Assembly: GCF_016722925.1 (NCBI RefSeq)
Contig: NZ_JAEQNC010000006.1
Span: 1-64,000 of the forward strand
Reading direction: 5' to 3'
Length of the DNA: 64,000 bases
Origin: Phytoamicus setariae
GTDB taxonomy: Bacteria > Pseudomonadota > Alphaproteobacteria > Rhizobiales > Rhizobiaceae
Every line of letters starts with the position of its first letter. Within the stretch, counting starts at the first letter, position 1. Below are positions 49,248 to 59,887 of the stretch, one piece after another. A program made the position numbers and the translations under genes. A model generated the notes under the pieces. It was not told where the DNA came from and searched no databases. It was given only the letters and a program-made list of their open reading frames with translations.

Positions 49248-49261
49248 TTGACTTTTGTCAA
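49248..49261. promoter_or_regulatory. TTGAC-N4-GTCAA dyad (SorC-type operator or FNR-type box)
   Basis: TTGACTTTTGTCAA is a perfect dyad between the divergent pseudoazurin and SorC-family genes. It fits the FNR/FixK/NnrR consensus (TTGAY-N4-RTCAA), which suits pseudoazurin. The same TTGAC half-site is repeated four times in the mtnK/ABC promoter, so it could instead be the SorC regulator's own operator, 43 bp before its start. Sequence alone does not decide. Confidence 0.5.
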
Positions 49262-49303
49262 TCGCCTCGAATATTGTCTAAATCAACGAAGTGCGGAGGA
49301 AAA

Positions 49304-50257
49304 ATGCCGATCAAGCCGAGCGATCAGATCATGCACAAGGCGGCATGGCTTTATTACATGCATGGCCTGCGGCAGGACGAAGTGGCCAAGCAACTGGATA
49401 TTTCCAGAGCCTCCGTTGCCCTCTATCTCCGGCGCGCGCGCGATTCCGGCATCGTCACGATCTCGACCTCTACGGACTTGTTTTCCCATGAGACGCTGGC
49501 GCGCGAACTTGAAGATCTGCTCGGGCTCACCTCGGTTTGGATCGTGCCTGAGGATCGGCAGGCGCTCGATCCTGCTGCCGAAATGCCGGTGCTTGCCGCC
49601 ACCGTATTCCTGGATCTCGTACGAAAGGGAGACAAGGTCGGCGTTGCCTGGGGCAAGACGGTTTATCACATCGCCGATGTCATGCCATTTGCCGATCTGA
49701 ACGGCGTCACGGTGGTACAGCTCTGCGGCAATCTCGGCGCGCCATATTCCTATCGACCAGACCAGTGTACGACCGAAATAGCTCGGCGGTTGAATGCACA
49801 GGGCATCAATTTCTACGCGCCGCTGGTTCTGAGTTCCGAGCGGTTGGCTGAAGAGTTGCGTGCGGAACCGATGATCAGAGAACAGTTGGCTTCGATCGCC
49901 GAGTGTGATCTCGCGCTCTATTCGGTCGGCGGCATCGAGGCCGACAGCCATCTTGTGAAATGTGGCGCATTGACGCCGGAGGAAATGCGAAGCCTAGGCG
50001 AGCGCGGTGCGGCGGGCGTCATTGCCGGCCAGATCATCGATGTTGAAGGCCGCTTGATGGATTGCGCGCACAATCGGCGCTGCATATCGGCCGATCTTGG
50101 GTCGATCAAGGCGATTCCGAAGCGGATAATGGTCGTGCAGGAAGACAACAAATACGAGCCGCTGGTCGCTGCCATCAAGGGCGGGTTTGCCTCGCATCTC
50201 ATCGTTACTGCATCGATGGGCAAGCGGCTGAAAGAACGATTCGCAACGTCGAAATGA
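49304..50257 (+). CDS. SorC/DeoR-family sugar-responsive transcriptional regulator
   Basis: A 317-residue regulator with an N-terminal winged helix-turn-helix (about residues 18-45: YMHGLRQDEVAKQLDISRAS) and a SorC C-terminal phosphosugar-binding domain (GVAWGKTVYHIADVM, and GQIIDVEGRLMDC). GCGGAGGA precedes the ATG. It lies 45 bp before the aldolase/SDR gene and probably controls it, as well as the mtnK and ABC genes about 7 kb away that carry the matching half-site array. A phosphorylated pentose such as methylthioribulose-1-phosphate is a reasonable effector, by inference. Confidence 0.9.
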   Translation: MPIKPSDQIMHKAAWLYYMHGLRQDEVAKQLDISRASVALYLRRARDSGIVTISTSTDLFSHETLARELEDLLGLTSVWIVPEDRQALDPAAEMPVLAATVFLDLVRKGDKVGVAWGKTVYHIADVMPFADLNGVTVVQLCGNLGAPYSYRPDQCTTEIARRLNAQGINFYAPLVLSSERLAEELRAEPMIREQLASIAECDLALYSVGGIEADSHLVKCGALTPEEMRSLGERGAAGVIAGQIIDVEGRLMDCAHNRRCISADLGSIKAIPKRIMVVQEDNKYEPLVAAIKGGFASHLIVTASMGKRLKERFATSK

Positions 50258-50302
50258 CTGCGCGCCGCGCGGGGGCGGCGTAACATTTTTCGGGAGGAAC
50301 TG

Positions 50303-52357
50303 ATGGAAAATCTCTGGAGGGACGCCGACGCGGAAGCGCTCGTGAGCCAGTATGAGGCGCGTGGTATCAATCGCGATCTGGCGCTGAGAACCTACACGAC
50401 GCGGCTGCTCGGAGGCGATCCGCGCCTCGTCCTGCATGGCGGCGGCAATACCTCGGTCAAGACCACCATGCTCGACCTCGTCGGTGACGCCCATGACGTC
50501 CTCTGCGTCAAGGGCAGCGGCTGGGACATGGGGACCATCGAGCCCGAAGGCTTGCCGGCGGTACGCATGCCGCAGATGTTGAAGGCGCGGGCTCTCGACA
50601 AGCTCTCCGACGAAGACATGGTGACGCTGTTGCGCGCCAATCTCATCCATCCGTCAGCGCCAAACCCTTCGGTGGAAGCGCTGCTGCATGCTTTCCTGCC
50701 GCACAAATTCGTCGACCACACCCATTCGACCGCGATCCTTGCCATCGCTGACCAGGCCGAAAGCCTGAAGATGACGCGCGAGATCTACGGCAATCGCCTG
50801 GGCTTCGTGCCCTACATCATGCCGGGCTTTGCGCTGGCCAAATCCGCCGCCGGCATTTTCGACCAGGACCCGACGGTCGAAGGGCTGCTGCTCGACAAGC
50901 ATGGGATCTTCACTTTCGGTGCGACGGCAAAGCAAGCCTATGACCGGATGATCCTCTTCGTGTCGATGGCCGAGGATTACGTGAAAGCGAGGGGACGAAA
51001 ACCATTCACTGTTGCGGCATTGCCTGCCGATCGGCCGTCGCCGAAAGACATCGCGCCGATGTTGCGCGGCGCGGTGGCCATAGACAAGGGACAGGGGCGT
51101 TACGACCGGATGATCGGGGTATTCCGCACCTCTCCGGCCATTCTCGATTTCGTCAACGCAGCCGAGGTGGCTGATATGGCGGCGAGAGGCGTTTCGACTC
51201 CAGACCTCTCGATCCGTATCAAGACGGGCCCGATGGTGCTTGCTGCGCCGTCGACGTCGAGCCTCTCGACTTACCGGGCGCATATCGAGGAAAAAACAGC
51301 GACTTTTGCCGCCGCCTACACCGATTATTTCCGCAGCAACGACGCGCGCGACGATGTCAAACGCATCATGCTCGACCCCATGCCGCGGCTGACGCTGGTG
51401 CCGGGGCTCGGCATGTTCGGCCACGGCCGGACCTACAAGGATGCGACGATCGCTGTCGATGTCGGGGAGATGTGGATCGAGGCCGCACGTGACGCCGAAT
51501 CCGTCGGCCGCTTCGAGCCGGTCAGCAAGCCCGATCTTTTCGATCTCGAATATTGGTCGTTGGAGCAGGCCAAGCTCGCTGGCGCAAAAGCCAAGCCTTT
51601 CACCGGGCAAGTTGCTGTGGTCACGGGTGGGGCAGGCGCCATTGGCGCAGCGACCGCGAGGGCGTTTGCCGCGGAAGGCGCCCACGTCGCGGTGCTGGAC
51701 CTCGATGCTAGCAGGGCGGCAGACGTTGCAAGAGCGGCTGGCAACAACTCGATCGGCGTCGCCTGCGATGTCACTGATCCCGCTTCAGTGCGCAAGGCTT
51801 TCGACGTCGTGATCGAAATGTTCGGCGGTATCGATACTGTGGTGTCCAATGCCGGTGCTGCCTGGGAAAGCCCGATCGCGACCATGGACGATGCGCTGCT
51901 GCGCAGGAGTTTCGAGCTCAACTTCTTTGCTCACCACTCCGTCGCACAGAATGCAGTTCGTATCATGAAGGCGCAGGGCACCGGTGGGGCGCTATTGTTC
52001 AACGCGTCCAAGCAGGCGATCAATCCCGGCGCCAATTTCGGCGCCTATGGCCTCCCGAAGGCGGCGACCCTGTTCCTGTCGCGGCAATATGCGCTTGAGC
52101 ACGGCAAGGATGGTATCCGGGTCAACGCAGTCAATGCCGACCGGATCCGCTCGGGACTGCTGAACGACGAGATGATCGCCAATCGCTCTACCGCGCGCGG
52201 GCTTTCCGTCGAGGACTACATGGCCGGCAACCTGCTCCACCAGGAGGTGACCGCCGAACATGTGGCACAGGCCTTCGTGCACCATGCGATGGCGGAGCGG
52301 ACGACCGGCGATGTCACCACCGTGGATGGCGGAAACATCGCCGCGACGCTCAGGTGA
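50303..52357 (+). CDS. bifunctional class II aldolase / short-chain dehydrogenase
   Basis: A 684-residue fusion. Residues 1-410 are a class II (AraD/RhaD-type) aldolase: LHGGGNTSVK, KGSGWDMGTI and the zinc ligands H139 and H141 in VDHTHSTAI. Residues 430-684 are an SDR with TGGAGAIG at 441-448 and catalytic S569, Y582 and K586. In rhamnose clusters the RhaD-type fusion cleaves rhamnulose-1-phosphate and oxidises lactaldehyde. Here the neighbours are MtnK and MtnA, not RhaI and RhaK, so the likely substrate is methylthioribulose-1-phosphate or 5-deoxyribulose-1-phosphate. Products would be dihydroxyacetone phosphate and an aldehyde that the SDR domain then oxidises or reduces. Confidence 0.85.
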   Translation: MENLWRDADAEALVSQYEARGINRDLALRTYTTRLLGGDPRLVLHGGGNTSVKTTMLDLVGDAHDVLCVKGSGWDMGTIEPEGLPAVRMPQMLKARALDKLSDEDMVTLLRANLIHPSAPNPSVEALLHAFLPHKFVDHTHSTAILAIADQAESLKMTREIYGNRLGFVPYIMPGFALAKSAAGIFDQDPTVEGLLLDKHGIFTFGATAKQAYDRMILFVSMAEDYVKARGRKPFTVAALPADRPSPKDIAPMLRGAVAIDKGQGRYDRMIGVFRTSPAILDFVNAAEVADMAARGVSTPDLSIRIKTGPMVLAAPSTSSLSTYRAHIEEKTATFAAAYTDYFRSNDARDDVKRIMLDPMPRLTLVPGLGMFGHGRTYKDATIAVDVGEMWIEAARDAESVGRFEPVSKPDLFDLEYWSLEQAKLAGAKAKPFTGQVAVVTGGAGAIGAATARAFAAEGAHVAVLDLDASRAADVARAAGNNSIGVACDVTDPASVRKAFDVVIEMFGGIDTVVSNAGAAWESPIATMDDALLRRSFELNFFAHHSVAQNAVRIMKAQGTGGALLFNASKQAINPGANFGAYGLPKAATLFLSRQYALEHGKDGIRVNAVNADRIRSGLLNDEMIANRSTARGLSVEDYMAGNLLHQEVTAEHVAQAFVHHAMAERTTGDVTTVDGGNIAATLR

Positions 52358-52369
52358 CATTCGCTCTGC

Positions 52370-53083
52370 TCAGGCGTCCAGAATGGGGGTGAAGCCGCCA
52401 TGGATCATGCGCTTGCCATCGAAGGGCAGGCTGTCCGGACGCATGCGTGGATCGGCCATCACTTTCTTCCAGCCCTCGTCGCGGATTTGCTTGGAAGGCC
52501 ATTCGACAAAGGAATAGACGACCGTTTCGTCGTTGGTGGCCTTCACCGCGCGTCTGCAGTCGGTGACCTTTCCATCAGGCACGTCGTCTCCCCACGAGTC
52601 GGAGGCGCGTGTCGCCCCACATTCCTTTAGCACAGTGGCGAACTTGACTGCGGTTTCCCGGTAGGCATCCTTGTTGCCGACCGGGACAGGAATGAGCGAG
52701 CCATCGACGTAGCCGGGCTTGCCGCCGCTGTTCTCATCGATGATCGTGGCAAACCCGCCGTAGATCATCCGCTTGCCGTCAAAGGGCATTTCCGAACCCA
52801 TCTCTTTCAAACGCGGATCATTCATCATCTTCTCGTTTACAGCATCGCGAATCTGTTTGCTGGGATACTCGACCCATGCGAACACGATCACCTCGTCCGG
52901 CTTGGCCTGAACGGCGCCCTTGAAGTCGGTGACCTTTCCTTCAGGCACTTCGTCGCCCCATGCCTCGACGATACGGGTTGCGCCGAATTCCCGGAAAAAG
53001 GTGGCGGCTTCGGCCGCGTGCTTGCGGTAGATTTCCTTGTTGGCGGCGGGAACTGCGGCGACGAATCCGTCTACATAAGTCAT
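52370..53083 (-). CDS. tandem DUF1428 protein
   Basis: A 237-residue protein made of two DUF1428 domains in a row (about 1-115 and 122-237). Both contain the pattern YVDG, then GATR, then SWGD/AWGDEVP(D/E)GKVTD, (E/W)(Y/W)PSKQIRD, and MPFDGKRMI(Y/H)GGF. DUF1428 is a ferredoxin-like dimeric fold of unknown function, normally a single ~115-residue domain; here the dimer seems covalently fused. Divergent from the MarR gene, with a likely shared promoter/operator. It sits inside the sugar cluster but may belong to the MarR unit instead. Confidence 0.88.
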   Translation of the reverse strand: MTYVDGFVAAVPAANKEIYRKHAAEAATFFREFGATRIVEAWGDEVPEGKVTDFKGAVQAKPDEVIVFAWVEYPSKQIRDAVNEKMMNDPRLKEMGSEMPFDGKRMIYGGFATIIDENSGGKPGYVDGSLIPVPVGNKDAYRETAVKFATVLKECGATRASDSWGDDVPDGKVTDCRRAVKATNDETVVYSFVEWPSKQIRDEGWKKVMADPRMRPDSLPFDGKRMIHGGFTPILDA

Positions 53084-53172
53084 GGCTTCTCTCCTTGCAT
53101 GGTTGGATTGCCGGCGGATTATCCAGGGCAAGCGCCTGGATTAAGCGGCGATTTCATCAGCGGGGTAGGCAC

Positions 53173-53203
53173 TTGACAGAATGAGTTGATATCAACATAT
53201 ATA
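53173..53203 (+). promoter_or_regulatory. marR promoter with embedded palindromic operator
   Basis: A perfect -35 TTGACA (53173-53178) and a -10-like TATATA (53198-53203) flank GTTGATATCAAC (53185-53196), a perfect 12-bp palindrome. An operator between -35 and -10 fits MarR autorepression and could also silence the divergent DUF1428 gene. The MarR ATG is at 53208, so the transcript would be leaderless or nearly so. Confidence 0.6.
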
Positions 53204-53207
53204 GCGC

Positions 53208-53657
53208 ATGTCAAACGCCGATCCTGTTTCCTTTGAAACGACTCTCCATGTTCGCGACCACTGCCTGTGCCTCTCGGCGCAACGGGCCGCCCGTGCGCTT
53301 GCGCGCCGATTCGATGAGGCCCTCCGTCCTGTCGGACTGACCAGCGGACAGTTTTCGCTGCTGATGTCGCTCAATCGGCCGAAGCCGCCTTCGATCGGTT
53401 CGGTCGCGTCCTTTCTGGCGATGGATCGAACAACGCTTACAGCAAATCTGAAGCCGCTCGAACGCCGGGGATTGCTGCTAACAACGGTGGACGCCGAGGA
53501 TCGGCGTGGACGAAGGTTGACGCTGACAGAGGCGGGACAGCAAATACTGGCAAAGGCCATGCCGATCTGGACAAGGACACATGCCGACGTCGATCTGCAG
53601 CTTGGCACTGCGCAGCCTGAGGTCGTGCGCGCCGGCTTGCGTGCGCTGGCGCTGTGA
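53208..53657 (+). CDS. MarR-family transcriptional regulator
   Basis: A 149-residue winged-helix regulator: RPVGLTSGQFSLLMSL, then the recognition-helix region SIGSVASFLAMDRTTLTANL, and the wing DRRGRRLTLTEAG. No ribosome site precedes its ATG, and the promoter lies only a few bases upstream, which suggests leaderless translation. It probably represses itself and the divergent DUF1428 gene through the 53185-53196 palindrome. Ligand unknown. Confidence 0.9.
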   Translation: MSNADPVSFETTLHVRDHCLCLSAQRAARALARRFDEALRPVGLTSGQFSLLMSLNRPKPPSIGSVASFLAMDRTTLTANLKPLERRGLLLTTVDAEDRRGRRLTLTEAGQQILAKAMPIWTRTHADVDLQLGTAQPEVVRAGLRALAL

Positions 53658-53658
53658 C

Positions 53659-53686
53659 AAAAAAGGGCGGCTCTTTCGAACCGCCC
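53659..53686 (-). terminator. terminator of the ribose-type ABC operon
   Basis: Read on the minus strand, GGGCGG / CCGCCC form a 6-bp stem followed by T6. It is 16 bp beyond the binding-protein gene stop and overlaps the end of the marR gene region. Confidence 0.75.
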
Positions 53687-53702
53687 AGTTCACTAGGGAA
53701 CT

Positions 53703-54755
53703 TTATTTCCTGGAAGGCAGCGGCATCCAGGCAGGAGCGGCGACATCGGCGTGGGCGAACTGTGGCATTTTCGCCGAAAGTTCTTCCATGTTCTTGATAT
53801 CGTTGTCGTTCAGGTCCTTCTGGGTGATCAGTGTCGGCGGCACGATTACGCTCTTGCCCGGATCTTCGCCAGCGAGCATCATCGCCAGCGCGCGCACGGA
53901 GACCTGGCCGACCACGGCCGGGTTTGTGGCGGCGGTCGCAGCCCACGCGCTGCCGGCTTCGCGCATCGCTGCTATGTCCGACGTCGAAATGTCGGCCGAG
54001 TAGATTTTCACGCTGGAGGACATGCCGGCTTCGTCAACGGCGATCTTTACGCCCTTGGCGAACTCGTCATAGGGGGCAAACATCACGGTGATATCCGGAT
54101 TGGCCGAAATGACCGAGCGAGCCTGGTTGGCAACCGAGTTGGCGATAGGGTTGTCCAGCGTGCCGAACATCGCTTTTTCATTGATACCCGGATACTGCGC
54201 CTTGAATTTCTTCCATGTTTCGTCACGGCGGTCGAGCGGCGCAATCCCTGCGACATAGACATAGCCGGCCTTCCAGCTATCGCCATTGTCCTTGATCGCC
54301 TGTTCCAGTGCGAGGCGAGCGAGGTCGCGGTCAGACTGTTCGATTTGCGGGATCTTGTCGTTTTCGACATTGACGTCGAAGGCCACGACCTTGATGCCGG
54401 CATCGACGGCGCGCTGGGCGGCTTCCTTCATCGATTCCGTCAGACCGTGCTGGATGATGATGCCGTTGACGCCAAGCGCGATCGCTTGGTCGACCATGTC
54501 GGCCTGAAGGGCGGCATCCTGGCGGCTATCGAGCACCCGCAGATCGACGCCAAGCGCCTTGGCCTGTGTTTCCACACCCGACAGATACGATTGAAAGAAG
54601 TCGCCGGTCGAAAGGTAGCGCACAAGCGCAATCTTGACCTTGCCCGCATCGTTGAACGGTGCCGGCATTTCAGCTGCAAATGCCGAGCCGGCAAAGGCGG
54701 TGGTCGCCATTAGGCCGAGTGCAATCTTGCCGAATACGCGTCTGGTAAAATTCAT
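53703..54755 (-). CDS. ribose-type (RbsB-like) periplasmic sugar-binding protein
   Basis: A 350-residue secreted binding protein. The signal peptide ends near residue 27 (AFA). The Peripla_BP_4 fold shows VKIALVRYLSTGDFFQSY, ALGVNGIIIQHGLTESM, VVAFDVNVEND and DITVMFAPYDEFAKG. Strong GGAGGAG precedes the ATG. It is the last gene of the operon ATPase-permease-binding protein, divergent from mtnK, so a methylthioribose- or deoxyribose-like pentose is the likely ligand. Confidence 0.88.
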   Translation of the reverse strand: MNFTRRVFGKIALGLMATTAFAGSAFAAEMPAPFNDAGKVKIALVRYLSTGDFFQSYLSGVETQAKALGVDLRVLDSRQDAALQADMVDQAIALGVNGIIIQHGLTESMKEAAQRAVDAGIKVVAFDVNVENDKIPQIEQSDRDLARLALEQAIKDNGDSWKAGYVYVAGIAPLDRRDETWKKFKAQYPGINEKAMFGTLDNPIANSVANQARSVISANPDITVMFAPYDEFAKGVKIAVDEAGMSSSVKIYSADISTSDIAAMREAGSAWAATAATNPAVVGQVSVRALAMMLAGEDPGKSVIVPPTLITQKDLNDNDIKNMEELSAKMPQFAHADVAAPAWMPLPSRK

Positions 54756-54809
54756 GACTGTCTCCTCCACGTTATTATTCCTCCATGTATTCTCAACAGG
54801 GCCTAGGCC

Positions 54810-55886
54810 CTATTTCCGGCTGCGCTGCGAGAGCGCGAAAGTGAATACCAGCGCCACCACCAGCACGGCGCCCTTGACGAAATCCTGGGTATAGTAGGGC
54901 GCATTCATCATCGTCAGTCCCTGCAGCAGGATGCCGACGAACAGTGCCCCGACTGCCGTACCGAATGCATTCGGCTTTGCGGCGCCCAACACGGCAAAGC
55001 CGATCAAAGCGGCGGCAACCGCGTCAAGAAGCAGGTTGTTGCCCGAGGCGATGTCGCCGCGACCAAGCCGTGCAGCCATCAGGATGCCGCCGATCGAGGC
55101 AAACACGCCGGAAATCACATAGGCGCCAATCTTGTAGGCATTGACCGGTGCGCCGGCGAGTTGCGCAGCGCGCTCGTTGGAGCCGACCGCATACATCATC
55201 CGGCCGAAGCGGGTATATTGCAGGAAAAACCAGATCAGCACCGCCAGAACGAGCAGGACGACGACCGAAACCGGCAGCAGATTGGGCAGGATGAAATCGA
55301 AGCGGTGTCGGCCGAGCGCCAGGAAACCGGGACTGAAGGTGCCGTTGGCGATCGAACCGTCGGGCATCGACATGCCGGTGGCGATCGAGCGGCCTTCGGT
55401 GGGTATACGCTGCAGCCCGACCAGCAGGAACATCATTCCAAGCGTTGCCAGAAGGTCCGGCACGCGCATGTAGACGATGAGGACGCCGTTGATCAGTCCG
55501 ACCAAAACGCCGATGGCGATGCAGACAACCGTCGCGGTGATCGCATCGCCGCCCATCACCACCATCACGTAGGCGGAGGCCATCATGGCGGTGGTCGCCA
55601 CCGAGCCGATGGAAAGGTCGAAGCCGCCGACCACCAGCGTGGCAGTGACGCCGAGCGCCAGAATGCCGGTGATCGCCACGGACTGGAAGATGAATACCGC
55701 ACTTTGCGGCGAGGCAAATCCGTCTGCGGCGATGCTGAAATACACGACCATGCCGAGCAGCAGGACCAGAAAGCCATAGCGGATGACGAGCTCGCGACCC
55801 GAAAGGCGGCCTGCCTTGTTATCCAGCGGTTTGTCTGTGGATTGAGTCACGGTCATGAAGTCTTGGTCGCTTTCTCGTTCATGCAT
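54810..55886 (-). CDS. ribose-type (RbsC-like) ABC permease
   Basis: A 358-residue inner-membrane permease with about eight to ten membrane segments and the family motifs TGILALGVTATLVVGGFDLS, GVLIVYMRVPDLLATLG and YAVGSNERAAQLAG. It transports the ligand delivered by the binding protein encoded 54 bp downstream. The ATG at 55886 overlaps the ATPase stop by 8 bp; an ATG at 55856 is an equally possible start. Neither has a clear ribosome site, so translation is probably coupled. Confidence 0.85.
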   Translation of the reverse strand: MHERESDQDFMTVTQSTDKPLDNKAGRLSGRELVIRYGFLVLLLGMVVYFSIAADGFASPQSAVFIFQSVAITGILALGVTATLVVGGFDLSIGSVATTAMMASAYVMVVMGGDAITATVVCIAIGVLVGLINGVLIVYMRVPDLLATLGMMFLLVGLQRIPTEGRSIATGMSMPDGSIANGTFSPGFLALGRHRFDFILPNLLPVSVVVLLVLAVLIWFFLQYTRFGRMMYAVGSNERAAQLAGAPVNAYKIGAYVISGVFASIGGILMAARLGRGDIASGNNLLLDAVAAALIGFAVLGAAKPNAFGTAVGALFVGILLQGLTMMNAPYYTQDFVKGAVLVVALVFTFALSQRSRK

Positions 55887-57390
55887 GCGCCGCGTGCCGC
55901 TTGCCGGCGATTTCCGCCAGCAGCAGGTCGACATCCGGGTTTTCATTAATGTGTTCGCCGACAATCGTGTGCTCGGACATCACCAGAATCCGGTCGGCGA
56001 TTTCGAAGGCTTCGTCGAGTTCGGTGAGGAACACCAGAGTTGCGCGTCCATGCGCCGATGCGCGCAGCTTGGTGGCGATGTCGCGTCGGGCGGCGATGTC
56101 GACGCCCTGGAAAGGTTCATCGAGCACCAGCAACCGCGACGGTTGAGCGAGCCACCGGCCAACCATCACCTTTTGTTGGTTGCCGCCCGAAAGGGTCGAC
56201 ATGTCGTCTCGTTCGGAGCGGCAGACGATCCCGAGTTCGCCGATCTGGCCACGGGCGCTTGCGCGTTCACGGCTGCGGCTCAGAATCGAAAACCTGGACA
56301 TCCTCTTGAGAAACGGCAGGCTGATATTCTCGATGATCGAGAAGCCCGGCACAATGCCGTTGGCGCCGCGATCTTTGGCGACCATGTGGACGCCATTGCG
56401 GATCGCCTCTCGAGGGGTCTGTGGCGCATAGGTTTGGCCGTCGAGCTTCATCTGCCCGCAAACCGGCTTGGCGAGGCCGAATATCGTCTCCGCAAGCACG
56501 GATTTGCCGACGCCGACGAGGCCGGTGACGGCGACGATCTCTCCGGAGCCCAGGGTCATCGAAAAGGGACTCGCACCATGGATAAGCTTTAGATCGCGGA
56601 TTTCCAGCACCGGGCTCTTGGCAGTGCGCACATCAATAAGGTTCTGCGTGGAAGAGCGCCCCAGCATGGCATCGACTGCTGCTTCGTAATCGAGCTCCGG
56701 TCCCTCGAAGACGCCGGCAATGCGTCCGTCACGCAGGCTGACGATCGTATCGGCCAGTCGCCGAATATCCGACATCCGGTGGGAGATATAGAGAATGGCG
56801 ACACCGCGCGCTCTCAGCTTGTCGATGAAATCGAACAAGCGGTCGGCTTCAGCGCTCGACAGGGACGAGGTCGGCTCATCGAGGATCAGAAGCTTCGGTT
56901 CGTGGGTCAGCGCCCGTGCGATCGCCACCATCTGTCGGTCGGCAAGCGGTAAATCCCCCACTGTGGCGGACATGTCGAAGGAAAGGCCCATCCGCGCTGC
57001 GACCGCTTCGGCTTCCCGCCGAACGCGCCGGGGGTTGAAAATGGTGCGTGCCCCCCGGCCGTTCAGTCGGTCGAGCGTCAGATTGGTGGCGACATCGAGA
57101 TCGGCAACCACCCCGTCATTGATGTTCTGGTGGACCGTCACAACGCCTGCGCGCAGCGCCTCTGCGGGCGTCTGCGGCGAAAATGTCTGTCCCGACAATT
57201 CGATATGGCCAGAATCGGCCGAATAGACGCCGCTGATAATACGGACAAGGGTTGATTTACCGGCACCATTGGCGCCCATCAGCACGGTAACCTTGCCGGC
57301 GGCAAGCGAAAGATCGACGCCGTCGAGCACGCGGACCGGCCCGAATGATTTGCGCAAATTCTCGATGCGGAAAAATGCCTGACTGACCAT
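55879..57390 (-). CDS. ribose-type (RbsA-like) ABC ATPase, two-domain
   Basis: A 503-residue ATPase with two nucleotide-binding domains. The first has GANGAGKS and LLILDEPTSSLS. The second has the degenerate-looking GLVGVGKS and LSGGNQQKVMVGRWL with VLDEPFQGVD. This double layout is standard for RbsA/XylG-type importers. Strong GGAGGAG precedes the ATG at 57390. It heads the minus-strand importer operon and faces mtnK across a 140-bp promoter region. Confidence 0.92.
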   Translation of the reverse strand: MVSQAFFRIENLRKSFGPVRVLDGVDLSLAAGKVTVLMGANGAGKSTLVRIISGVYSADSGHIELSGQTFSPQTPAEALRAGVVTVHQNINDGVVADLDVATNLTLDRLNGRGARTIFNPRRVRREAEAVAARMGLSFDMSATVGDLPLADRQMVAIARALTHEPKLLILDEPTSSLSSAEADRLFDFIDKLRARGVAILYISHRMSDIRRLADTIVSLRDGRIAGVFEGPELDYEAAVDAMLGRSSTQNLIDVRTAKSPVLEIRDLKLIHGASPFSMTLGSGEIVAVTGLVGVGKSVLAETIFGLAKPVCGQMKLDGQTYAPQTPREAIRNGVHMVAKDRGANGIVPGFSIIENISLPFLKRMSRFSILSRSRERASARGQIGELGIVCRSERDDMSTLSGGNQQKVMVGRWLAQPSRLLVLDEPFQGVDIAARRDIATKLRASAHGRATLVFLTELDEAFEIADRILVMSEHTIVGEHINENPDVDLLLAEIAGKRHAAHA

Positions 57391-57427
57391 AAACTCCTCC
57401 CTGAACACAATGCTAGAGCCGGATGTC

Positions 57428-57456
57428 GTCAATTGTCAAGGCCATTGACATTTGAC
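57428..57456. promoter_or_regulatory. symmetrical four-half-site operator between mtnK and the ABC operon
   Basis: Four copies of one pentamer are arranged symmetrically: GTCAA at 57428-57432 and 57435-57439, then TTGAC at 57445-57449 and 57452-57456, with 2-, 5- and 2-bp spacers. The same pentamer forms the dyad at 49248-49261 before the SorC gene. One TTGACA (57445-57450) could also serve as a -35, with TTAACT 17 bp further on, so binding here could block mtnK transcription. Confidence 0.6.
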
Positions 57457-57530
57457 AGAGCGCTGTTTTAACTCAGGTCTAACGGGGTATGGGAGACCCT
57501 CAAATCATGACTTCGGGAGGAGAGGATCAG

Positions 57531-58793
57531 ATGTTGGCATTCGTTGCCTTGTCGGTGGAAACGCTTGCCGCGCGGCTGGGCGCTCTGGACGCGTTGCGTG
57601 AAAGAATTGGCCAGGATCCGGGCAAGTGGACAGTTGCGGAAGTGGGCGATGGAAACCTCAACCTTGTCTTCATCGTGAAGGGCGATATCGGCTCCGTTAT
57701 CGTCAAGCAGGCGTTGCCCTACGTCCGTCTGGTCGGGGAGAGCTGGCCGTTGCCGCTGAAACGCTCCTTCTTCGAATATCATGCGTTGATGCGTCAGGGT
57801 GCGCGCGATCCCGGCATGACGCCCGAGATTTTCCATTTCGATCAGGCCCAGGCGATCATCGTCATGGAGTTCCTCACGCCGCATGTGATCTTGCGCAGGG
57901 CGCTGATCGACGGCCGTGAACTGCCAAGGGTTGGCCGCGATCTCGGGCTTTTCGTCGCCAGAACCCTGTTTCGCGGCTCGGACCTGTCGATGGTTACGCG
58001 GGAGAAGAAGGCCGATCTGGCGCTGTTTTCCGACAATGTGGCGCTTTGCGACATCACAGAGGCATTGGTGTTTTCCGACCCCTATTTCGAAGCGCCGCTC
58101 AACCGACACACATCGCCCCAGCTCGATGATCTGGTCGCTGAACTGCGCCGCGATCGAGATCTGAAGGTCGAAGCGCAACGCCTCAAGCATCTGTTCTCGG
58201 CCAATGCCGAAACGCTCTGCCACGGGGACCTGCATACCGGTTCGGTCATGGTGACCGATGCGGAAACCAAGGTGATAGATCCGGAATTCGCATTCTATGG
58301 ACCAATTGCCTTCGATGTCGGGATGCTGATCGCCAATTTCTGGATGAGCTACTTCTCGCAGAGCGGACACGAGGAACGCGGCGAGCGCCACTCCATGCGT
58401 GCCTATTTGCTGCACACGGCGACTGAGATCTGGGATGTGTTCGCCACCGAATTCGGTCATCTCTGGCGCACCGAGCGCAAGGGTATTCTCTATCAGGCAT
58501 CGCTTTTCGAAGCGCAGGGAGACGCGCTCGGCGCCGAGCAGGCACTCGATCGGATCCTGGACGACATCTGGAACGACATGCTGGGCTTTGCCGGCGTGGA
58601 AATTCACCGCCGTATTCTCGGCCTCGCCCACAACGCCGATTTCGAGACGATTGCCGACCACGACATGCGTGCATGTTGCGAGGCCAAGGCATTGAAATTC
58701 GGGCGGCATCTTGCCGTCAACCGTAGTCGCATACGCAGCATGGCCGAGATTTCGGCGCTCGCGGAGCGGCTTGAGAAGGAGCAGGTCAAGTGA
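57531..58793 (+). CDS. mtnK: S-methyl-5-thioribose kinase
   Basis: A 420-residue kinase of the aminoglycoside-phosphotransferase fold. The catalytic loop [10 protein letters not shown] has H231 and D233, and the MtnK-specific DPEFAFYGP follows with D250 and E252. The N-terminal GDGNLNLVF and [11 protein letters not shown] and C-terminal [13 protein letters not shown] also fit. It phosphorylates methylthioribose (or 5-deoxyribose-like sugars) at C1. The ATG at 57531 has GGAGGAGAGG upstream. Its stop overlaps mtnA by 4 bp. Confidence 0.95.
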
Positions 58794-59887
58794 AAGTCGC
58801 CAATCAACATTATAGAACAATCTGGCTCAACGAAGATGGGCAATCTGTCGACATCATCGATCAGCGCTGGCTGCCACATGAATTCCGCATCGTCACTTTG
58901 AAGACGGTTGCCGACGTTGCAACTGCGATCCGCGACATGTGGGTGCGGGGCGCGCCTTTGATTGGCGTTACCGCCGCTTACGGCATTGCTATCGCAATGG
59001 TCTCTGATCCAGGCGATGAAAATCTCGAAAAAACGTGGAATGAACTCAATGAAACACGCCCGACAGCGATAAACTTGCGGTGGGCGCTCAATGAGATGAA
59101 GACGTTTCTTGCGCCTCTTTCTCCTGATCGGCGTGCTGACGCCGCCTATCGACGGGCAGCCGAGATTGCCGAGGAGGATATCGAGCTCAACCGCCGCATC
59201 GGCCAAAACGGACTCGAGATCATCAGGAAAATCGCTGCCGGCAAGGAACCTGGAGAGCCGGTGAACATACTTACGCATTGCAATGCGGGATGGCTCGCAA
59301 CGGTAGACTACGGCACGGCGACGGCACCCATCTACCTCGCCACGGAAGAGGGCATCCCGGTGCATGTCTACGTCGATGAGACCCGGCCGAGAAATCAGGG
59401 CGCGCAACTGACCGCCTGGGAGATGGTCGGGCACGGCGTTCCGCACACGCTAATCGTCGACAATGCCGGCGGGCATATGATGCAGCACGGCAAGATCGAC
59501 ATGGTGATCGTCGGTACGGATCGAACCACTAGCCAGGGTGACGTCTGCAACAAGATCGGCACCTACCTGAAGGCGCTTGCCGCCAAGGACAACAATGTGC
59601 CTTTCTACGTGGCGCTGCCGTCGCCGACGATCGACTGGACGGTCTCGGACGGGGTGGTAGAGATCCCGATCGAGGAACGGGACGAGGATGAAGTCAGCTT
59701 CATTCAGGGCAAGGCAGGCGACGGCTCCGTCAGTCGTCTGCGGATTTCGCCGGAAGGTACGCCGGCGTCAAATCCGGCGTTCGATGTGACGCCGGCGCGG
59801 TTGATTACCGGCCTGATTACCGAGCGCGGCGTTGCGCCGGCGTCAGGCGAGGGGCTTCGCGCCCTGTTTCCGGAAAGAGCACATTAG
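58790..59887 (+). CDS. mtnA: S-methyl-5-thioribose-1-phosphate isomerase
   Basis: A 365-residue isomerase of the MtnA / eIF2B-like family: [14 protein letters not shown] (RGAP 53-56), the catalytic C164 (THCNAGWLA) and D244 ([10 protein letters not shown]), and [10 protein letters not shown]. It converts methylthioribose-1-phosphate to methylthioribulose-1-phosphate. The downstream MtnB, MtnC, MtnD and MtnE genes of the usual methionine-salvage route are absent here; the aldolase/SDR fusion in the same cluster could act on its product instead. A good terminator follows. Confidence 0.96.

Follow-up and report, generated by a model that had tools for sequence, protein, structure and literature searches.

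A putative catabolic unit for 5-methylthioribose or 5-deoxyribose in Phytoamicus setariae with an aldolase-dehydrogenase fusion beside mtnK and mtnA

DrdK, DrdI and DrdA have been described as converting 5-deoxyribose and 5-methylthioribose to dihydroxyacetone phosphate (DHAP) and an aldehyde, and some clusters of this DHAP shunt include putative sugar transporters (PMC6079011). Escherichia coli with mtnK-mtnA-ald2 is reported to grow on exogenous 5-deoxyribose (PMC10986504), and a DeoR-family repressor, MtnR, encoded next to the E. coli operon, controls these three genes (PMC12632272). In Rhodopseudomonas palustris, the aldehyde was recovered as 2-(methylthio)ethanol and a 5'-methylthioadenosine (MTA)-isoprenoid shunt runs parallel to Ald2 (PMC5893883). 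The fusion of an aldolase to a short-chain dehydrogenase (SDR) is already known from RhaEW, for which PMC3870299 reports that cleavage is coupled to aldehyde oxidation dependent on nicotinamide adenine dinucleotide (NAD), with no product formed without NAD and no activity with NADH. Here we analyse a 64-kb window (positions 1-64,000 of contig NZ_JAEQNC010000006.1, assembly GCF_016722925.1) from Phytoamicus setariae, in which the block 49304-59887 encodes an aldolase-SDR fusion together with MtnK, MtnA, a sugar importer and a SorC-type regulator.

Comparison of genes and gene neighbourhoods suggests that the block is probably a catabolic unit for externally derived 5-substituted ribose, most likely 5-methylthioribose and/or 5-deoxyribose, which would also accept internally made sugars. 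Joining the DrdKIA precedent (PMC6079011) to the coupling reported for RhaEW (PMC3870299) gives the proposed route, in which the RbsABC-type ATP-binding cassette (ABC) importer would take the sugar in, MtnK would phosphorylate C1 and MtnA would isomerise the product to a ribulose-1-phosphate. The aldolase half would then release DHAP and methylthioacetaldehyde or acetaldehyde, and the SDR half would use NAD to turn the aldehyde into the acid while it is still on the protein. Until a phosphorylated sugar of the pathway accumulates, the SorC-type regulator probably keeps its own operon and the divergent importer and mtnK promoters repressed by way of a TTGACWTTTG-type site. The substrate, oxidation rather than reduction, and repression are what we infer from these comparisons. 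A fuller version, to which we would give even chances, holds that a single polypeptide was independently recruited to the DHAP shunt, cleaves 5-methylthio- or 5-deoxyribulose-1-phosphate and oxidises the aldehyde in place to (methylthio)acetate or acetate, within a SorC regulon that has a methylthioribose-specific importer, and that many rhizobia add a second exit through a ribulose-1,5-bisphosphate carboxylase/oxygenase (RuBisCO)-like protein and a split transketolase.

Gene content of the block

The regulator, the fusion, a complete RbsABC-type importer, MtnK and MtnA, which the first-pass annotation had placed in one block, are all present as open frames with family matches. The features are as follows, with the start codons of the binding-protein and permease genes picked by inspection.

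49248-49277, plus strand: operator-like half-site TTGACTTTTG (49248-49257), overlapping a promoter-like match 5' of sorC
49304-50257, plus strand: SorC/DeoR-type regulator with sugar-binding domain (Sugar-bind/SorC PF04198, E 9.4e-49)
50303-52357, plus strand: class II aldolase (residues ~1-230) fused to SDR (~431-684); Aldolase_II and adh_short in a single 684-residue frame
~52370-53089, minus strand: tandem DUF1428 protein, between the fusion and the binding-protein gene
53665-53686, minus strand: terminator-like hairpin closing the importer operon
53703-54755, minus strand: periplasmic substrate-binding protein, RbsB type (Peripla_BP_4)
54810-55856, minus strand: ABC permease, RbsC type (BPD_transp_2)
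55879-57390, minus strand: ABC ATP-binding protein, RbsA type (two ABC_tran stretches)
57430-57454, no strand assigned: palindromic operator-like site CAATTGTCAA-N5-TTGACATTTG, between the two divergent operons
57489-58793, plus strand: MtnK, 5-methylthioribose kinase (APH; TIGR01767)
58790-59887, plus strand: MtnA, 5-methylthioribose-1-phosphate isomerase (TIGR00512), overlapping the mtnK stop codon

Both sugar-phosphate enzymes lie well above their equivalog cut-offs (MtnK, TIGR01767 (MTRK), 492.3 bits against 275; MtnA, TIGR00512, 439.7 against 279). The fusion scores 1134.2 bits with NF006192 (cut-off 639), an equivalog family that carries only the generic name 'bifunctional aldolase/short-chain dehydrogenase', and falls below the cut-off of TIGR02632, the rhamnulose-1-phosphate version (489.9 against 567.75 bits). 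We regard it as a candidate 5-methylthio/5-deoxyribulose-1-phosphate aldolase-dehydrogenase.

For the binding protein, which is 81-93% identical in 19 relatives, the best solved relative is 4ry8, at 220.7 bits (next 135.4), with 115 of 318 aligned residues identical. We take 4RY8 to be the Thermotoga lettingae binding protein solved with 5-methylthioribose; the record text reads only 'Periplasmic binding protein', and no paper on it was found.

The DUF1428 gene inside the block goes unmentioned in the first-pass annotation. Its protein had no match in the 80 related loci introduced below, as far as these were fetched, and the gene was therefore rejected as a component of the system and is probably a passenger. 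A GC-rich hairpin followed by a T-rich stretch at 50262-50281, between sorC and the fusion gene, might reduce read-through into the latter. Terminator-like matches in the block are above chance (18 against 9.7 expected).

The fusion enzyme and RhaEW

Rhamnose breakdown was the alternative singled out beforehand as the one to refute the assignment, and it is excluded by several results in addition to the TIGR02632 score. A second fusion, encoded on contig C9 of the same genome, is 34% identical to the window fusion, exceeds the TIGR02632 cut-off (1072.7 bits) and adjoins the L-rhamnose isomerase RhaI (826.4 bits, cut-off 646.75), and RhaI was found in 0 of the 80 loci nearest to the window fusion. 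In a tree of 38 of the 137 extracted fusion rows, RhaEW forms a single clade (100/100) on a long branch, while 17 mtn-linked rows and six others form a second clade (100/99), with the tool warning that long branches meet. Two rows were dropped from this tree as too short (L209, aldolase part, 417 residues; L063, 297 residues); L102, whose contig stops short of mtnA, was labelled 'mtn' manually, and L196, with mtnK on another contig of its genome, was kept as 'other'. The short L209 row (L209:9038-10288, genome G413, contig C10) is a fusion paralogue consisting of aldolase and linker only, a split or trimmed relative; its neighbours are another ABC importer of the sugar type and a distant homologue of SorC (26%).

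A tree of aldolase domains, with Ald2 and MtnB not included, sets all fusions, RhaEW among them, apart from FucA, DrdA and the E. coli RhaD (97/98), the last on a very long branch, and again separates RhaEW (100/100). The aldolase of the window is thus distinct from the RhaEW clade, but it sits within a RhaE-like superclade and not near DrdA.

Residues E125, H139, H141, H200, D466, N516, S569, Y582 and K586 are invariant in all 87 distinct sequences at least 65% identical to the fusion (its own included), within an alignment of 112 distinct rows. The fusion homologue of G043, with two in-frame stops, was left unused. The histidines are of the metal type and the Asn, Ser, Tyr and Lys are those of the SDR family. 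Glu125, the catalytic glutamate, is also kept in all 22 more distant non-rhamnose fusions and is Asp in 3 of 3 RhaEW sequences, in agreement with the report that Asp replaces the catalytic Glu117 of RhaD in RhaEW (PMC3870299).

Since SDRs commonly act on carbonyl/alcohol pairs, the pathway might run as proposed except for its last step, with methylthioethanol or ethanol formed by reduction of the aldehyde in the SDR half. Asp466, at the end of the second strand, would suggest NAD, a point against this reading. The 2-(methylthio)ethanol recovered from R. palustris (PMC5893883) speaks for reduction, against which RhaEW is reported to oxidise and to show no activity with NADH (PMC3870299), and we consider reduction rather unlikely.

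Conservation, alternative enzymes and putative regulatory sites

Conservation was assessed in the best 80 of at least 569 confirmed fusion relatives on contigs from one genome per species, and the counts hold for these nearest relatives. Their fusions are 68-85% identical to that of the window, under names such as Rhizobium, Ensifer, Shinella, Mesorhizobium and Devosia. Gene content was read by homology scans with the window proteins, as longest-frame calls gave wrong frames in GC-rich DNA. A regulator at least 60% identical lies near the fusion in 80/80 loci, mtnK and mtnA are both visible in 69/80, and all parts together, from the regulator and the three importer genes to mtnK and mtnA, are present in 66/80; the search of other rhizobia suggested at the outset thus recovered the set in most nearest relatives. 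Eleven loci have no mtnK and mtnA in view, five of them cut at 8.8-12.5 kb, and whole-genome searches for ten of the eleven found mtnK in seven.

Within the same family 17 genomes were sampled, and mtnK occurs in 11 of 11 with the fusion and in one of six without it (one-sided Fisher 0.001, relatedness ignored), one of the six fusion-free genomes being 1.5 Mb in size. In 16 genomes whose sole fusion match is under 45% identical, mtnK was not found. The unit is carried on large plasmids in several rhizobia, for example on Shinella and Ensifer plasmids (L227 and L228), and the fusion protein has matches in 60 plasmid records at E 1e-100, of which 23 reach at least 60% identity.

Searching the other way, for mtnK in 121 genomes of the order, gave 25 positive genomes; 25 neighbourhoods outside the window were fetched from 24 genomes, with identity thresholds of 45% for importer and fusion, 35% for FucA types, 40% for RuBisCO-like proteins and 50% for transketolase and mtnA. 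Thirteen of the 25 contain the importer, and each of these 13 carries at least one of three candidates: the fusion in five (L039, L040, L041, L045 and L048), a single-domain FucA/DrdA-type aldolase in four (L050, L051, L062 and L063, where the L063 match spans roughly half the aldolase and the locus shows no mtnA), and a RuBisCO-like protein with a split transketolase in nine, alone in L042, L043, L044 and L047. The 12 importer-free mtnK loci show a FucA-type aldolase in three and none of the three candidates in nine, which include a 3.2-kb contig and L058, with an aldolase match of 32%, under the threshold. Because a FucA-type aldolase or a RuBisCO-like protein replaces or accompanies the fusion in importer-mtnK loci of other families, the fusion is placed at the 5-substituted ribulose-1-phosphate step, and this context points to an action on the MtnA product.

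These loci also bear on the idea that the fusion cleaves another ketose-1-phosphate (a 6-deoxyhexulose or similar) and is no more than a neighbour of mtnK-mtnA that shares their regulator. The fusion is related to RhaEW and to uncharacterised fusions found in other contexts, and in the window it does not stand in one run with mtnK-mtnA. However, the unit has no 6-deoxyhexose isomerase or kinase, RhaI is missing from the nearest loci as described above, the genes run mtnK-mtnA-fusion-sorC without interruption in L045 and L048, with the fusion directly after mtnA, and fusion-free importer-mtnK loci carry another enzyme for the same intermediate. We therefore judge a different ketose-1-phosphate improbable.

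The RuBisCO-like protein and a split DXS/transketolase-like pair follow mtnA or lie beside the importer in L041-L045, L047, L048, L050, L051 and L228:20581-23638. In 28 of the 80 nearest loci (L064-L143) a RuBisCO-like gene, together with the split pair, stands alongside the fusion. The RuBisCO-like protein of L042, the one scanned, has 3qfw as its best solved relative. The protein and the split pair form a possible second exit from the MtnA product; literature searches found no paper on a branch of RuBisCO-like isomerase and split DXS/transketolase-like pair.

The putative operator links the two promoter regions of the unit. Across 83 loci (1.73 Mb), TTGACWTTTG was counted 152 times, of which 148 fall in the two promoter regions (79 5' of sorC and 69 between the ATP-binding-protein gene (atp) and mtnK) and four elsewhere; by locus, it lies upstream of sorC in 79/83 and between atp and mtnK in 40/70. 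After removal of near-copies, which kept 80 of 82 sorC regions and 54 of 70 atp-mtnK regions, a looser GTCAA-N5-TTGAC is found in 54 of 54 atp-mtnK regions, where shuffles gave about 0.03 regions per spacing, and the half-site is the element common to the sorC regions. The full palindrome pattern has a single match in the 5.6-Mb genome, at 57430-57454. In L042-L044 the half-site is also found near the start of the transketolase/RuBisCO-like genes, with one more copy within the permease gene, and no exact half-site was found in L050, L051, L062, L063 and L196. As the element contains TTGAC, which resembles a -35 box, and is overlapped by promoter-like matches (four in the block, not above the 3.2 expected by chance), part of the conservation may be promoter; its extension beyond the hexamer argues for a putative operator instead. 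The gene set is probably co-regulated, and a link to the SorC regulator would agree with the presence of the regulator in all 80 loci and with the half-site common to both promoter regions.

The proposed functional link of the fusion to mtnK-mtnA is thus supported by the conserved set, the FucA-type or RuBisCO-like alternatives in fusion-free loci, the common half-site and the exclusion of a rhamnose role.

Several observations weigh on the other side. The paired palindrome is not common to both promoters, TTGAC-N4-GTCAA being present in only 12 of 80 sorC regions. The three wholly searched fusion genomes that gave no mtnK, out of ten, are all metagenome-assembled genomes; fusions at 55-58% identity (L193 and L194) do not adjoin mtnK/mtnA, with mtnK lying about 22 kb off in one of the two genomes and not found in the other; and L225 (G497) has mtnK-mtnA and a 33% SorC homologue with no importer or candidate consumer within 20 kb. 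Rows with mtn context do not form a single clade in the tree of fusions, the label needing four changes, and the aldolase half groups with RhaE-like proteins and not with FucA/DrdA, as noted above. RhaEW, the characterised member of the fusion superclade, acts on L-rhamnulose-1-phosphate, which is 3R,4S. For DrdA, a 3R,4R product was deduced from FucA (PMC6079011). Homology thus does not supply the stereochemistry needed, and that of the fusion would have to have changed or relaxed.

Salvage setting and comparison with known pathways

Neither acireductone dioxygenase (MtnD, PF03079) nor a RuBisCO-like protein (PF00016) had a match in the genome, and complete methionine salvage was rejected on this ground. 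Class II aldolases occur at five places, three of them single-domain, and none of these three reached the MtnB cut-off in NCBIfam (best 83.8 against 137.05 bits). The first-pass statement that MtnB, C, D and E are lacking therefore stands for MtnD and for a single-domain aldolase at the MtnB cut-off; MtnC and MtnE were not searched genome-wide.

Two of the other aldolases, on contigs C12 and C18, are of the FucA type and are the main rivals for the cleavage step: either might cleave the MtnA product while the fusion does something else. Aldolases beside mtnA in L054 and L057 share 63-64% identity with the C12 aldolase, which groups with those beside mtnKA on the aldolase-domain tree, and for the C18 aldolase DrdA (6btd) is the best solved relative; both facts count against the route through the fusion. 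Both genes, however, lie on other contigs than mtnK and mtnA, the palindrome pattern matches in the window only, and the conserved fusion would be left unexplained, so that we hold this substitution to be very unlikely. The C18 aldolase stands side by side with a methionine-gamma-lyase-like gene, an amino-acid-type ABC importer and a uridine-phosphorylase-like gene (L153:4170-9534); its best model is ribulose-1-phosphate aldolase, below cut-off, and the cluster is perhaps a separate route for nucleosides or sugars derived from S-adenosylmethionine (SAM).

The source of the sugar is a further point on which the first-pass annotation was partly right. It had favoured an external source over internal salvage, and the importer agrees with this, but an MTA/S-adenosylhomocysteine (SAH) nucleosidase on another contig (TIGR01705, 341.6 bits, cut-off 152.2) would allow internally made methylthioribose to enter via MtnK, giving MtnK and MtnA a possible part in internal salvage as well. 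The unit might even mainly dispose of internally made methylthioribose or 5-deoxyribose, with the importer recapturing leaked sugar, and MtnK is the only strong kinase copy in the genome (one other match is weak). Against this, the importer is divergent from mtnK with a palindromic site common to both between them, and neither of the two annotated regions, the only loci scanned for a nucleosidase, carries such an annotation. With its regulation and an importer of its own, the unit also resembles sugar catabolism, as in the reported growth of E. coli on 5-deoxyribose (PMC10986504). Internal disposal as the main role seems doubtful to us, and we continue with an external sugar as the probable principal substrate.

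If the proposal is correct, plant-associated bacteria could use methylthioribose and 5-deoxyribose, by-products of SAM chemistry, as food; both are also by-products of plant ethylene synthesis. Covalent coupling would be a way to remove the reactive aldehyde of the DHAP shunt, the curated family NF006192 would gain a function, and the pathway may have a further branch that runs through a RuBisCO-like protein and a transketolase. In two annotated plasmid regions, the fusion is named generically and mtnK and mtnA carry methionine-salvage Gene Ontology labels, which would be called into question. As to the suggestion that the combination is undescribed, the link of the fusion to mtnK/mtnA looks new, but the aldolase-SDR architecture is that of RhaEW (PMC3870299). 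The open-library literature yielded no paper on a rhizobial mtnK-mtnA-aldolase/SDR system, with a description in the North 2020 DHAP-shunt paper or the Sekowska 2004 review still possible.

Compared with universal methionine salvage (MtnK, MtnA, MtnB-E), the window shares MtnK and MtnA and differs in the absence of MtnD and in having the fusion aldolase in the place of MtnB. The MTA-isoprenoid shunt of Rhodospirillum rubrum and R. palustris (MtnA and the DeepYkr RuBisCO-like protein) starts at the same MtnA product, whereas the genome of the window has no RuBisCO-like protein; the parallel shunt and Ald2 of R. palustris (PMC5893883) resemble those related loci in which a RuBisCO-like protein and the fusion stand side by side. 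With RhaEW (L-rhamnulose-1-phosphate aldolase/L-lactaldehyde dehydrogenase; yuxG) the fusion has in common the two-domain architecture, the metal-type histidines and the SDR catalytic residues, and the covalent coupling of aldol cleavage to oxidation is that of RhaEW (PMC3870299), but the fusion has Glu in place of Asp, an mtn and not a rha context, and a separate clade. Like the DHAP shunt of E. coli (mtnK-mtnA-ald2) and Bacillus thuringiensis (DrdK-DrdI-DrdA), the window encodes a kinase and an MtnA-type isomerase above their cut-offs; unlike it, the aldolase is RhaE-like and fused to a dehydrogenase rather than a FucA-type Ald2/DrdA, and the importer is an RbsABC-type ABC system.

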